Shown here: piece by piece, positions 4,369 to 44,461 of the stretch | Layout: each line of letters starts with the position of its first letter | How positions within the stretch are numbered: position 1 is the first letter of the stretch | NCBI GenBank assembly: GCA_002698985.1 | Contig: PAAY01000102.1 | Span: 2,593-52,134, forward strand | Direction of reading: 5' to 3' | Length of the DNA: 49,542 bases | Source: Saprospirales bacterium | GTDB lineage: Bacteria > Bacteroidota > Bacteroidia > Chitinophagales > Saprospiraceae | Position numbers and translations under genes: made by a program | Notes under the pieces: generated by a model | What the model saw: the letters and a program-made list of their open reading frames with translations, nothing else | Database searches by the model: none | Told to the model about the DNA's origin: nothing

Positions 4369-6171
4369 ATGAAATCAGTGTCAGTATTGCTATTCCTCTT
4401 CTTTCTGGCTTTTGCAGCATCGGCACAAGATGCCAAGCTGGCCCAACAGTATTACAACGACGGAGAGTTTGAGAAGGCAGCCTATGTGTACAAGAAGTTG
4501 TACGAGAACCAGAATAACAATGAGTATTATTTCAATCGCTACCTCACCTGCCTGATGGCGGTGGAGCAGTTTGACGAAGCTGAAGAGGCCGTTCGGGATG
4601 CCCTAAAAAACGACCCTAAAAACATCCGATTGCTGGTGAGCTACGGCAACATTCTGGAACGGCAGTTTAAAGAAGACGAGGCCAAAGAGCAATACGAGAA
4701 GGCCCTGAAAAGAATGCCCGCCGATCAATACGAAATCACCCGGCTGGCCAGCACCTTCAGCAGCCTGCGCAAATACGACTACGCCATCAGGGCCTACGAG
4801 CAGGGCGGGGAGATGATCAAAAACCCCAGCATCTTCGCTTTCAACCTGGCGGAACTTTACCGAAGGAAAGGCGACATCCCCAACATGATAGCCAATTACC
4901 TGAACAGCCTGGATGCTTACCCCGACAGGCAGGCCACTGTTCAGAGCCAGTTGCAACGCTACCTGGGCACCGAGGATGACTTTCTGGAATTGCAAACCCA
5001 GTTGTACGATCGCCTGCAGAAAAACCCTGAGGCCTACCACTTCATGGAATTGCTCGAATGGGTCTTCATTCAGAAGAAAGACTACAAAGGTGCGCTGCGA
5101 CAGGCCAAAGCCCTGGACCGCCGGCTCGATGAAAACGGCAGCCGCATTTACAGGCTGGCCCAAACGGCTTTTCAGGATAAGGACTATGACGCCGCCATAG
5201 CTGCCTTCCAGTACATCGTGGATGTGAAGGGGCAGCAGTCCATGTTCTACATAGATGCCAAACGGGAAGCCCTGCGGGCCCTCCGCAACAAGTTGGTGGA
5301 GGGTTTCAACTACACCGAGGCCGAGCTCCGTGAAATAGAGCAGGCTTATGAGGCTTTTCTCGATGAGTTCGGTCGCAATAAAGTGACCGCTTCCATCGTG
5401 GCCGAGCTGGCCGATCTGGAAGCCCGCTACCTCAACAACCTCGACAAGGCCATCGAACTGCTGCAAGAAGTCATTGCCTACCCCGGCATCAACCTACAGA
5501 CCCAGGCCAGGGCCAAACTGAGCCTGGGCGACTACTACCTCATCAAAGGTGAAATATGGGAGGCAACCCTGCTGTACTCACAGGTGGATAAGGCCTTTCC
5601 GGAAGACCAGCTCGGCCATGAAGCTCGCTACCGCAATGCCAAGCTGTCTTATTACAACGGCGATTTTCAGTGGGCGCAGGCACAGTTTGACGTGCTGAAA
5701 GGCTCTACCTCCAAACTCATCGCCAACGATGCCATCGACATGTCAGTGTTCATCATGGACAACCTCGGACTGGACACTACCGACCAGGCGCTCAAGCTCT
5801 TCGCCGCCGCCGACCTGCTGACCTTCCAGAACAAGTTTGACGAGGCCTTCGCAAAACTGGACACCCTGCTGATGAAGTTTCCCAAACACAAGCTGGACGA
5901 CGACGTGCTGTATGCCAAGGCGCAGATCTACTCCAAAATGCGGCAGTACGACAAGGCCATCGAACTGTATGAAAAAATCGTGGAGCAATACCCCGATGAA
6001 ATACGGGCGGACAATGCCCTCTTCGAAATGGCCAGCCTCTATGAAAACCAGCTCGGCGATCCCGATAAGGCCATGAGCTATTACGAGAAGATATTTATCG
6101 AATATTCCGGAAGCACTTTCTCCATCGAAGCCCGCAAACGCTACCGGAAATTGCGAGGGGATAATATTTGA
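4369..6171 (+). CDS. Secreted tetratricopeptide-repeat protein
   Basis: A protein of about 600 residues built almost entirely of TPR-like helical repeats after an N-terminal signal peptide. The ATG at 4369 is chosen because it places a hydrophobic signal sequence ending in ASAQ at the very N terminus; the upstream in-frame ATG at 4297 would add 24 residues ahead of it. Repeats of the form YxxGEFEKAAYVYKKLY are visible near the N terminus and YDKAIELYEKIVEQYPDE near residues 525-540. It probably acts in the periplasm or at the outer membrane as a scaffold. No enzyme domain is seen. It is a single gene, converging on the DUF5723 gene across a terminator. Confidence 0.85.
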   Translation: MKSVSVLLFLFFLAFAASAQDAKLAQQYYNDGEFEKAAYVYKKLYENQNNNEYYFNRYLTCLMAVEQFDEAEEAVRDALKNDPKNIRLLVSYGNILERQFKEDEAKEQYEKALKRMPADQYEITRLASTFSSLRKYDYAIRAYEQGGEMIKNPSIFAFNLAELYRRKGDIPNMIANYLNSLDAYPDRQATVQSQLQRYLGTEDDFLELQTQLYDRLQKNPEAYHFMELLEWVFIQKKDYKGALRQAKALDRRLDENGSRIYRLAQTAFQDKDYDAAIAAFQYIVDVKGQQSMFYIDAKREALRALRNKLVEGFNYTEAELREIEQAYEAFLDEFGRNKVTASIVAELADLEARYLNNLDKAIELLQEVIAYPGINLQTQARAKLSLGDYYLIKGEIWEATLLYSQVDKAFPEDQLGHEARYRNAKLSYYNGDFQWAQAQFDVLKGSTSKLIANDAIDMSVFIMDNLGLDTTDQALKLFAAADLLTFQNKFDEAFAKLDTLLMKFPKHKLDDDVLYAKAQIYSKMRQYDKAIELYEKIVEQYPDEIRADNALFEMASLYENQLGDPDKAMSYYEKIFIEYSGSTFSIEARKRYRKLRGDNI

Positions 6172-41286: not shown

Positions 41287-42804
41287 TTATCGGTGAAGTG
41301 GTGATTTCAGAATGTAAGGTTGCAGGGCATCGGCAATTTTCCGGTCGTTGCTGAGGCGGGGCACCTTGTTTTGCCCGCCCAGTTTGCCCTGTGATTTCAT
41401 GTATTCCCGAAAGGCATTCTTTTGCAATGGCCTGATGACCAGCCTGCGGAGAATGTGCCCCTCGATAAGGTCTTTGTAGTAAATGTTTTGGCCTACCATC
41501 TGTTCATCGAGCAAAGCTGAAAAGGCCTCCAGGTCCTCGGGCATTTGCTCGAATTCCACAAACCATTCGTGGTAGGGCAAACCGCCCTCGGGCGGCGTGA
41601 TTTGCGGAGCGACCGTAAACTCTGTAACCGTTGCACTTTGTTGGGCAGTGGCGGCCAGCATGGCTTGTTCCACCTCTTTACCGATGACGTGTTCTCCGAA
41701 GGCAGAAATGAAATGCTTGATGCGGCCGGTGACGAGCAAACGGTAAGGTTTGGTGGAGGTGAATCGAACGGTATCACCAAGGTTGTAGCCCCACAGCCCG
41801 GCATTGCTGTTGATGATGAGGGCGTAGTTGACGCCGGGTTCCACCTCTTTCAGTGAAAGGCGGGTCGGATTTTCGTTGAAGATCTCTTCTGACGGAACGA
41901 ACTCAAAGAAGATCCCGGAGTTCACATTCAACAGGAGAGAAGGATCGCCGGGCTGGTCCTGAAAAGCGATAAAGCCTTCCGATGCGGGGTAGGTCTCAAC
42001 GCTGGCAATGCGCTTGCCAACCAGTTTTTCCAGGGCATCGCGGTAAGGTTCAAAGTTTACCCCGCCGTAAACGAACATGGAGTAATTGGGGAAGATGTCT
42101 TTGATGTATTGCTTCCTGCTGCGCTCCAACAGCCTTTCGTAGTACATCTGCACCCAGGGTGGTATGCCGCTGATGAGGCGCATGTCCTGGTGGAGGGTTT
42201 CATCAACGATGGCCTCCAGTTTTTCTTCCCAAACCTCGATGCAGTTGGTTTCGTAGCTGGGCAGTTGGTTGGTGCGCAGCCAGGCCGGCACCAGGTGGTT
42301 TACGATGCCGGAGAGGCGGCCCGTTGGAATACCGCCCACCATCTCCAACTCAGGGCTTCCCGACAGAAAGATCATTTTGCCGTCCAGCCAGTCGCCGTGG
42401 CCGGTGCGGGCGTAATAGTTGAACAGGGCATTGCGGGCGGTGCCGAAGTGATTGGGCAGGCTGTCTTTGGTCAAAGGGATGTACTTGACACCGGAGGTGG
42501 TGCCGGAAGTTTTTGCGAAGTATTTGGGCTTGCCGGGCCAAAGCACATCTTTTTCCCCTTTAATGATGCGGTCCACCCAGGGGCGCAGCGCCTCGTAATC
42601 CCTGATGGGCACGGCGGCTTTGAAATCTTCGTATGACTTCACTTTATCCAGCCCGTGCTCTTTGCCAAAGGCGGTGCCGGCACCTTTGCTGATGATGCGT
42701 TGAAATTGGCGCGCCTGTGCTTCCAGCGGTTCGGCGCTCCAGCGCTCGATGGATTTGGCTATTCGCTTCGCAAATGGTTTGAGCAGGCGTGATTTGAAAC
42801 CCAT
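41287..42804 (-). CDS. GH3 auxin-responsive promoter family protein (acyl-adenylating enzyme)
   Basis: An ANL-superfamily protein of about 505 residues. Plant GH3 proteins conjugate amino acids to acyl acids through an adenylate, and bacterial homologues have unknown substrates. FAKTSGTTSGVKYIPLT near residues 101-117 is the phosphate-binding loop, SVETYPASEGF the second adenylate motif, and LLVTGRIKHF the third. The ATG at 42804 is chosen because MGFKSRLLKPFAKR is the family N terminus; 42834 would add 10 polar residues. Upstream is a hairpin tandem repeat. The gene leads into the thioredoxin lipoprotein. Confidence 0.92.
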   Translation of the reverse strand: MGFKSRLLKPFAKRIAKSIERWSAEPLEAQARQFQRIISKGAGTAFGKEHGLDKVKSYEDFKAAVPIRDYEALRPWVDRIIKGEKDVLWPGKPKYFAKTSGTTSGVKYIPLTKDSLPNHFGTARNALFNYYARTGHGDWLDGKMIFLSGSPELEMVGGIPTGRLSGIVNHLVPAWLRTNQLPSYETNCIEVWEEKLEAIVDETLHQDMRLISGIPPWVQMYYERLLERSRKQYIKDIFPNYSMFVYGGVNFEPYRDALEKLVGKRIASVETYPASEGFIAFQDQPGDPSLLLNVNSGIFFEFVPSEEIFNENPTRLSLKEVEPGVNYALIINSNAGLWGYNLGDTVRFTSTKPYRLLVTGRIKHFISAFGEHVIGKEVEQAMLAATAQQSATVTEFTVAPQITPPEGGLPYHEWFVEFEQMPEDLEAFSALLDEQMVGQNIYYKDLIEGHILRRLVIRPLQKNAFREYMKSQGKLGGQNKVPRLSNDRKIADALQPYILKSPLHR

Positions 42805-42814
42805 TTGATGGTGT

Positions 42815-42866
42815 TGAGGATTTGATCCCGACATCCGTCGGGAAAGGAATCGAGGAATCGAAACTC
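42815..42866 (+). repeat. Period-8 tandem repeat with hairpin upstream of the GH3-family gene
   Basis: GTTGAGGATTTGAT leads into CCCGAC-ATCC-GTCGGGA and GGAATCGAGGAATCG units. Except for orientation it is close to the copy at the recJ stop codon. It lies 11 bp upstream of the GH3-family start, in the opposite direction to the gene. Confidence 0.7.
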
Positions 42867-42995
42867 ATTGTATCCCGCGGGGGCATTGAGTCACTCGGGG
42901 TTGCAAAGATAATGGCAAGGGTTTGCAGAGGTGATTGCCGGGTAACCATATTCAGGTAATTGCGTGCGATTCTGAAAAAAGTCGCTCCAGGATTC

Positions 42996-43024
42996 TTGTA
43001 TTAAAACAAATGGCAATATTTTTG
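42996..43024 (+). promoter_or_regulatory. Candidate promoter for the structured RNA
   Basis: TTG (42996-42998), 18 nt, then TATTTTTG (43017-43024) fits the TTG / TAnnTTTG consensus. No ORF follows on this strand for more than 300 bp. Transcription is predicted to start near 43030. Confidence 0.5.
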
Positions 43025-43029
43025 ACGCA

Positions 43030-43350
43030 TTATCACACACCTTAATGTGGCAACGCCCACAAGTTTTTCAACACGTCCCGAACTCGATTACAATAAATTT
43101 TCCCGTTTACTTAATCCGGAAACCGGCATCCCAAAACGCGGTATCCCGGAAACCGAATACCACCATTAGAACCTGTTCGCACGGGTTTTGATTTGTCTGT
43201 TATTGTCTTGTGGATCCCATGACCACAGGAAATAAGGACATCGTGATATTCATAGTAAGGTACACCAGTGACACTACCCCTGGTTGCCCTTTACACTATG
43301 TTTCACAACCAGGCCGGCACGCATTCCCTTATGCGTTGCCGGTTTTTTGT
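43030..43350 (+). ncRNA. Candidate structured non-coding RNA of about 320 nt
   Basis: The 563-bp gap between the GH3-family gene and obg has no credible ORF but has a promoter match, a chain of hairpins and a terminator. Hairpins include TGTGG/CCACA near 43047-43062; GGTAT...ATACC (43140-43161) enclosing CGG-AAA-CCG; CCTGT-TCGC-ACGGG (43172-43185); CTTGTGG/CCACAGG (43207-43229) with extra outer pairs; and CCTGGTTG/CAACCAGG (43279-43313). A related CCGGAAACCG block occurs twice. No tRNA-like end, RNase P P4 element or SRP GGAA domain was seen, so tmRNA, rnpB and 4.5S RNA are unlikely. A 6S-like RNA cannot be excluded, though the structure is a row of hairpins rather than one long rod. Confidence 0.5.
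43314..43348 (+). terminator. Rho-independent terminator of the candidate RNA
   Basis: CCGGCACGCAT (43314-43324) pairs with ATGCGTTGCCGG (43331-43342) with a single bulge, a 6-nt loop and six T residues after it. The T run lies on the plus strand, so it does not serve the leftward genes. Confidence 0.85.
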
Positions 43351-43367
43351 TTTTCGTCGCAATGGAC

Positions 43368-44390
43368 TTACCAGCCTTGATCTTCGGTTGGATCCTGGTG
43401 GGCGGTCATCGTTTTCCAGATGAGGTCTTTTAATTCATCGAGGCCTTTTTGCGCCACCGAAGAAATGAACACCACCGGTATTGGCAGTTTTAGCTCGCTT
43501 CGCAACATTTCGATGATTTCCTGGTCGATCAGGTCGCATTTTGAAATGGCCAGAATCCTGGGCTTGTCGAGCAATTCCGGATTGTATTTCTCCAGTTCAT
43601 TCACCAGCGTGTGGTATTCCTTCAGAATGTCTTCAGAAAAGCACGGCACCATGAATAGCAGGGTGGAATTTCGCTCGATGTGCCGCAAAAACCGCAGTCC
43701 CAGGCCCTTGCCTTCGTGGGCGCCTTCAATGATTCCGGGGATGTCAGCCATCACAAAAGAACGGGAGTCCCGGTAAGAGACGATGCCCAGGTTGGGCACC
43801 AGCGTGGTGAAGGGATAGTTGGCAATTTTGGGCTTGGCCGCAGACAGTGCCGCCAGCAGTGTTGACTTGCCGGCATTGGGAAAGCCCACCAGCCCCACAT
43901 CGGCCAGCACTTTCAATTCCAGAATTTTCCATTCCTCTTTGCCGGGTTCTCCGGGCTGGGCGTATTCGGGTGCCTGGTTGGTGGCAGATTTGAAGTTGGT
44001 GTTGCCAAGGCCACCCCGGCCACCGGCCACCAGAATCTTCTCCTCACCGTGTTCGGTGATTTCAAACTCGATTTTTCCGGTTTCGGCATCTTTTGCCACA
44101 GTGCCGAGCGGCACGTCCAGGATGATGTCTTCGCCGTTGGCTCCGGTGCGGTTGCCGCCGGCACCGTTGCCGCCGTTTCCTGCAATGACGTGCTTGCGGT
44201 ATTTCAGGTGCAGCAGGGTCCAGTTGTTGCGGTTGCCACGCAGGATGATGTGCCCGCCACGCCCACCATCGCCACCGTCGGGGCCACCCTTCGGATTGCG
44301 GCGGTCGCGGTGGAAGTGTGCGCTACCTGCTCCTCCTTTTCCGGAACGGCAACAAATTTTTACGTAATCGACGAAGTTCTGTCCTGCCAT
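43368..44390 (-). CDS. obg: Obg/CgtA family ribosome-associated GTPase
   Basis: An essential GTPase that binds the 50S ribosomal subunit and links its assembly to growth. The glycine-rich Obg fold covers residues about 1-158 ([12 protein letters not shown]). The G domain has GFPNAGKST (G1), DIPG (G3) and SKCD (G4). The protein is about 340 residues and lacks the C-terminal OCT extension of some homologues. The start at 44390 (MAGQNFVDY) is the conserved one; the frame to 44423 adds 11 residues. It is separated from adk by a terminator, so it may have its own promoter, which I do not see. Confidence 0.96.
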
Positions 44391-44461
44391 CTTGTAGTAA
44401 TAACTAACTGTGAATCTTTTCAATAAGCCATGCTTGGATACAAGCTGCGGCCCATTTGGTT

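Follow-up and report, generated by a model that had tools for sequence, protein, structure and literature searches.

What is encoded on the plus strand between the GH3 and obg genes of this Saprospirales genome, and on what would its product act? The window analysed here, that is, the whole stretch of DNA, is 49,542 nucleotides long. A candidate RNA gene, which we call obg-RNA, lies in it at 43029-43348 on the plus strand, between the divergent GH3 and the convergent obg. The locus is laid out as follows.

41287-42834, minus strand: ORF called GH3 in the earlier note, divergent from the plus-strand unit
42996-42998, plus strand: TTG, proposed -33 element, by direct reading; N18 then separates it from the -7 box
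43017-43024, plus strand: -7 box TATTTTTG, of the Bacteroidota type TAnnTTTG, preceded by AAATG at 43008-43012
43029-43348, plus strand: predicted obg-RNA transcript of ∼320 nt, its start placed from the usual -12 to -5 position of the -7 box
43314-43348, plus strand: intrinsic terminator, CCGGCACGCAT stem and T6 (43343-43348), a terminator being there in 12/12 homologues
43368-44423, minus strand: obg, convergent with the plus-strand unit

The earlier note, made from the letters of the window, had described most of these parts, and direct reading confirmed them: the TTG-N18-TATTTTTG promoter match, two near-identical blocks (CCGGAAACCGG at 43116-43126 and CCCGGAAACCGAA at 43145-43157), a terminator stem that starts at 43314 and abuts an 8-bp hairpin (stem 43279-43286 / 43306-43313), and a T run on the plus strand between two flanking genes that both point leftward on the minus strand. 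TAnnTTTG is given as the sigma-A -7 box in the available part of PMC9723704. This box is present in 11 of the 12 obg-RNA homologues described below, TGTTTTTG standing in its place in L005 (genome G010). A TTG at a spacing of 18–21 precedes it in 8/12; just two of these, the window and L009, have a spacing of exactly 18. A promoter/terminator scanner run on the window listed neither the named promoter, its consensus being that of E. coli, nor the named terminator, for which it gave other sites only. We also considered a special regulon behind the AAATGNNNNTANNTTTG promoter and rejected it; in eight genomes there were 59 such sites against 80 for the reversed control, so that the pattern is no commoner than this control. 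Among the genes behind 11 fetched sites, one reads as ribosomal protein L13 and another as a tRNA. For both reasons AAATGNNNNTANNTTTG was taken as an ordinary vegetative promoter, and obg-RNA is probably transcribed from it. A promoter close to that of obg-RNA, CAAATGGCACTACATTTGACA, was also seen in L116, from another family of the order, before a gene that reads as htpG-like.

The following internal parts were recognized.

43043-43052, plus strand: TAATRTGGYA, a conserved block close to the 5′ end, 26–27 nt past the start of the -7 box, in 12/12 homologues
43116-43161, plus strand: CCGGAAACCGG hairpin, CATCCCAAAA linker and GGTAT..ATACC hairpin, with CCCAA(A/G) in 12/12 homologues
43165-43192, plus strand: 12-bp hairpin of the predicted fold
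43194-43240, plus strand: long hairpin of the predicted fold, where ten relatives have a GCGCTG..CAGCGC hairpin
43270-43278, plus strand: GACACTACC, the first ACACTAT motif copy in degenerate form; in 8/12 homologues this first copy is exact
43279-43313, plus strand: 8-bp stem with a 19-nt loop, CCCTTTACACTATGTTTCA, by direct reading and in the predicted fold

The series of hairpins that had been proposed is present in the window fold, and its stability exceeds that of shuffled sequences (z = -4.0 over 43020-43352; in the 3′ part, 43160-43352, z = -6.35), the opposite strand of 42870-43365 reaching only -1.24. The values for the 12 obg-RNAs are mixed, from -1.05 (L016) to -4.91. With the terminator removed, z becomes +0.49 in L016 and -0.74 in L013 and L019, and the opposite strand gives -5.0 in L005, -4.5 in L015 and -3.1 in L020. 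Covariation was observed in two helices. The GCGCTG..CAGCGC hairpin, found in 10/12 homologues (the window and L009 carry another long hairpin), has 95.5% of its cells paired and double changes at 3 of 12 pairs (10 sequences). The corresponding figures for the 5′ hairpin, from six sequences of one clade, are 97.6% and 3 of 7 pairs, one of the five covariation measures (further pair types) being not above shuffles. RNAalifold on all 12 sequences gave only 13 pairs; therefore, the fold has drifted between clades. These covariation figures are for the two helices named, the alignment of the obg-RNA terminator across both clades being poor.

For homology searches, model R1 was built from the 3′ 91 positions of obg-RNA and model R2 from its 5′ part. 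R1 identified homologues in 12 of the 14 genomes of one Saprospiraceae genus (57–94 bits), the next match within the genus being at 30.5 bits. G013 gave no R1 match; this genome is 78% complete and its contig ends at obg. G009 had only a 21.7-bit match, which was read as background. The order of parts is constant, namely -7 box, TAATRTGGYA, CCCAA(A/G), hairpin, CCYTYACACTAT and terminator, and CCYTYACACTAT is kept in 12/12 homologues, compared to a mean column identity of 45% over the whole alignment. The L009 homologue is 96% identical to that of the window. By reading, the gene upstream is of the GH3 type in L009 and L010, and several other homologues have an aldolase-like gene there; obg itself does not adjoin obg-RNA in G010. 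As the neighbours change and obg-RNA stays, we concluded that it is its own unit. Thus, the comparison of related genomes that the earlier note had called for found two covarying helices and a retained promoter type, motif order and terminator. Of its proposal of a free-standing regulatory or housekeeping RNA, the free-standing part held (12/14 genomes, two covarying helices, exchanged neighbours), whereas a housekeeping role is not supported for an RNA recognized in one genus only. The L005 homologue (G010) has a long insert with TTGGCCA repeats and is the only one whose -7 box lacks the TA.

Beyond the genus the RNA was not recognized. Across 199 genomes of the family, R1 recognized it in no genome other than three matching members of the genus; a further six genomes, from outside the genus, gave 25.8–28.6 bits, and on reading all six were judged non-homologous, most of these matches being terminators or coding sequence in a different setting. 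R2, run across 396 genomes of the order, recognized only five genus members (46–50 bits) and elsewhere gave at most 23.3 bits; of the 41 other matching genomes, seven were read and proved to have an ordinary promoter or coding sequence at the match. The region downstream of obg was covered in 29 of 40 other genera; it had no R1 match, and R2 gave only 10.3 bits, in L081. A pattern scan of the whole collection returned 13 contigs. obg-RNA is present in six of them (L050, L054, L055, L056, L058 and L059), four being Saprospiraceae and two labelled only Bacteroidota or Bacteroidetes, and is absent from 4 of the 10 that were read (L048, L052, L057 and L060), with L049, L051 and L053 outside this count. 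In two of these contigs, from Prevotellaceae UBA1716, the pattern had matched ACACACTATTAGTATGAAGG-like repeats that lie ∼22 bp apart and are partly palindromic (L057 ∼1226-1256 and L060 ∼5237-5267); they are probably unrelated to obg-RNA. A phage origin was dropped, as two motif patterns had no match in viral_contigs. Its sequence suggests that obg-RNA is a genuine RNA gene belonging to one genus of the Saprospiraceae.

Could it be a known RNA or a short message? The Rfam search suggested in the earlier note was run, and no family, whether 6S, Flavo-1, Bacteroidales-1 or any other in Rfam 15, matched the window at the gathering score. The best weak match over the unit was P31 (23.9 of 40 bits, opposite strand); this match, RF_site2, ncr1175 and a further set of weak matches, nearly all of them to miRNA families, were rejected as chance. 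The idea of a diverged 6S RNA draws on the fact that the 6S gene is unaccounted for. RF01685 was found in 0/14 genus genomes, where no positive control matched either, so that absence is not proven, and RF00013 in 0/41 family genomes, 5 of 14 controls being matched. Like 6S RNA (RF00013, RF01685), obg-RNA is intergenic and structured. However, 6S RNA is a long rod with a central bubble and obg-RNA is a series of hairpins; it matches no covariance model at the gathering score, has no 6S among its weak matches and is not recognized in other genera. We therefore consider a 6S identity highly improbable. A short-peptide mRNA starting at TAATRTGG is harder still to credit. An ATG or GTG start codon does occur at the same position in 12/12 homologues, but the frames opened from it run from 5 to 69 codons (40 in the window, 5 in L009), and the stem at the start position covaries in the clade tested. 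No conserved reading frame, as a leader peptide or small protein would have, was found among the 12 homologues. The earlier statement that the region has no ORF was loose, five plus-strand ORFs of 40–56 codons overlapping it, but no reading frame is kept.

A candidate partner for this RNA emerged from its best-conserved internal element. When CCYTYACACTAT was searched in nine genus genomes, all nine had, besides obg-RNA, a second conserved place. This near-invariant block adjoins a polyprenyl-synthetase-like gene; on its other side lies an acetyltransferase-like gene at 26 of 30 loci of other genera, replaced in the obg-RNA genus by a peptidase-like gene (all by reading of translations). A peptide, MKHYFF, was considered at this place on the opposite strand and dropped, since two A.C mismatches of the hairpin on the printed strand become G.U pairs on the other strand, which ends in a T run. 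The block was therefore read as the 3′ terminus of a putative RNA with the sequence ..AUAGUGUUUCAUAGUGUGAGGGG-terminator. We call this candidate small RNA RNA#2 and AUAGUGUUUCAUAGUGUGAGGGG, which directly precedes the terminator, its seed. Its copy in the window genome (G000), together with the facing elements of obg-RNA, is as follows.

Contig C47, 164313-164332, minus strand: RNA#2 of the window genome (locus L169/L233), outside the window
Window 43281-43300, plus strand: putative pairing site for the RNA#2 seed, 20 contiguous bp including G.U, by complementarity
Window 43288-43299, plus strand: core of the pairing site, CCTTTACACTAT, the core being in 12/12 homologues

Several observations argue for RNA#2 as an sRNA gene. 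In its common form the hairpin has -17.8 kcal/mol on the RNA strand, against -5.4 on the other. The 12-bp terminator covaries, with 99.1% of cells paired and double changes at 5 of 12 pairs in 18 sequences, which were picked from 58 for equal hairpin length. A terminator-like hairpin was scored by script at 45 of the 58 sites. It was seen by eye in L186–L192 and L208, where the script had cut within the T-rich loop or found no TTTT run. No such hairpin was found at L184, L224, L226, L227 and L231, and the one scored by script at L211 was regarded as chance. The seed 15-mer is present in 128 of 398 family genomes and in 50 of 112 genera, the reversed-pattern control giving no site in almost every row. 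With at most two mismatches allowed, a 20-base seed pattern was found in 13/14 genus genomes and in 0/66 genomes of other families of the order.

Terminator, strand and conservation thus fit an sRNA gene. As for the promoter, TAnnTTTG lies 104–129 nt upstream of the seed in 8 of the 11 genus genomes examined, and the 260 nt upstream of the seed contain no exact copy in the window genome, in G003, in G002 or at the second G006 copy. For these four, transcription of RNA#2 is therefore proposed from conservation and the terminator. At loci with the acetyltransferase-like gene upstream in the same orientation, RNA#2 could also derive from the 3′ end of that gene by cleavage. Rfam gave no match to RNA#2, at the gathering score for 10 loci and at E up to 1 for four loci. 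By its sequence RNA#2 looks like a seed-type sRNA. If so, it represents, as far as searched, an sRNA family not described before, whose one near-invariant seed is spread over much of the Saprospiraceae.

The CCYTYACACTAT motif of all 12 obg-RNAs is antisense to this seed. In 10 of the 11 genomes with both RNAs, the longest complementarity between them falls at one register and spans 13–20 bp including G.U; in the window genome it is 20 bp, at 43281-43300. The first test covered 10 genomes in 11 rows (G006 twice), the whole obg-RNA being set against the last 164–175 nt of RNA#2. Duplex energies were -27.6 to -35.3 kcal/mol, and in any row at most 3 of 300 shuffles were as good. When one seed was run against all 12 obg-RNAs, the run was at least 13, the maximum being 11 in 1000 shuffled seeds and 8184 window 30-mers. 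These statistics depend on selection, RNA#2 having been picked by its carrying the complement of the motif. Two features lie outside the selection. First, the sequence matched, in antisense, is the seed of a family-wide RNA and sits immediately upstream of the terminator of that RNA. Second, in G000, G003, G012 and G007, which are 4 of the 8 obg-RNA-bearing genomes searched, CCYTYACACTAT occurs genome-wide only at obg-RNA and, in antisense, at the RNA#2 seed; the other four have 0 to 2 further sites.

Other observations are less favourable. Within any one genome a run of this length is unremarkable (shuffles reach maxima of 13–19), and by duplex energy alone two other places in the window beat the pairing site. 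There were no compensatory changes between obg-RNA and RNA#2, both sites being nearly invariant. The predicted unpaired probability is modest at the obg-RNA site (0.26–0.76) and low at the RNA#2 site (0.03–0.38). G010 has not kept the register, and its longest run, 12 bp, lies elsewhere; its RNA#2 seed has two changes and no T run after it, and its obg-RNA has a broken -7 box and the long insert. We read this as decay of both RNA genes in one draft genome. RNA#2 occurs where no obg-RNA was found (G009 and G013), and obg-RNA where no RNA#2 was found (G005). A possible second contact was noticed in the L016 and L019 obg-RNAs, whose GGTAAGTATCA is complementary to a second RNA#2 piece, TGATACTTACC, conserved in part of the genus.

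The sequences show a conserved RNA gene with its boundaries and stems, a second conserved locus with the form of a terminator-ended small-RNA gene, and complementarity of the two that is kept at a single register. An sRNA sponge carries sites that can pair with an sRNA, as SroC does with GcvB. Such a conserved site, complementary to the seed of a putative sRNA, is found here in 10/11 genomes, the partner having been found through the motif. Our tentative reading, to which we give not quite an even chance, is that obg-RNA is a genus-specific dedicated sponge for the family-wide RNA#2. Made from its vegetative promoter as a stand-alone RNA of ∼320 nt, it would base-pair with the RNA#2 seed through the loop just upstream of its terminator (43281-43300), masking that seed together with the initial bases of the RNA#2 terminator arm. 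The second exact ACACTAT copy of 8/12 homologues may serve as an additional site. RNA#2 would thereby be taken out of action, titration or joint decay being the simplest outcome. We infer from the sequences that both RNAs are transcribed and meet in the cell with this outcome.

The same pairing could work in the opposite direction, with RNA#2 as the regulator and obg-RNA as a target that loses stability or whose 8-bp hairpin, abutting the terminator, is opened. The much wider spread of RNA#2 (the 15-mer in 128/398 family genomes), its sRNA anatomy with the seed adjoining the terminator, and a pairing site that ends 14 nt before the obg-RNA terminator stem all suit this direction. We consider it unlikely, since a target that is non-coding and lacks any other known output would be unusual, and a second exact motif copy in 8/12 homologues suits titration better. 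An extended form of the idea joins both directions: RNA#2 bound at 43281-43300 would open the hairpin and cause read-through antisense into obg, and obg-RNA would in turn drain RNA#2. If true, this switch would tie a family-wide sRNA to the level of obg, an essential ribosome-assembly GTPase; we regard it as very unlikely.

Alternatively, obg-RNA may be an independent trans-acting or protein-binding sRNA, its match to RNA#2 being coincidental or reflecting something else that the two share. RNA#2 was discovered via the motif itself, the register is lost in G010, and obg-RNA has other conserved C-rich stretches (TTTCCCAAAA, and AACAAACCCATCC in one clade) that the RNA#2 seed does not match. The lost register in G010 and the lack of a -7 box before RNA#2 in the window genome weakened the sponge reading and raised this one. 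However, the motif is antisense and not sense to RNA#2, as the terminator strand and the G.U pairing indicate, so that a shared protein site is not expected, and the register is the same in 10/11 genomes. We therefore judge independence to be rather unlikely, though a serious contender, and keep the sponge as the preferred reading.

If this reading is right, obg-RNA would be a dedicated sRNA sponge in Bacteroidota, and seed and sponge would form a directly testable pair in Saprospiraceae. Sponges are known in other phyla, for example in Caulobacter, according to the available part of PMC12559287. Like these, obg-RNA has sites complementary to a putative sRNA; it differs in being a stand-alone structured gene of ∼320 nt in Bacteroidota, with a putative action deduced from sequence. 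Among the matches listed in the open-licence literature there was no Bacteroidota sRNA sponge, and among those listed for Saprospiraceae noncoding RNA none was about such RNAs. As far as searched, obg-RNA and RNA#2 are both undescribed. By description, one of the closer counterparts of obg-RNA is Rfp18 of Flavobacterium psychrophilum, likewise a genus-conserved structured Bacteroidota sRNA from a genome with TAnnTTTG promoters; it differs in its role, being needed for proper levels of a protease mRNA (PMC9723704, available part). Neither this account nor that of FopS/GibS of Bacteroides thetaiotaomicron (PMC11697453) describes a sponge in the parts available, and the word is absent from the main text of the latter. 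The FopS RNAs are multicopy sRNAs that, like RNA#2, are short and have one seed common to several copies in some genomes, the available part of PMC11697453 placing that seed in the 5′ part, in contrast to the RNA#2 seed, which abuts the terminator. Multiple RNA#2 copies were seen in G621 (five, L216–L220) and G006 (two, L164 and L180); they carry the same seed 15-mer, and their terminators and flanking sequences are mostly unrelated, as would be seen among paralogous sRNAs.
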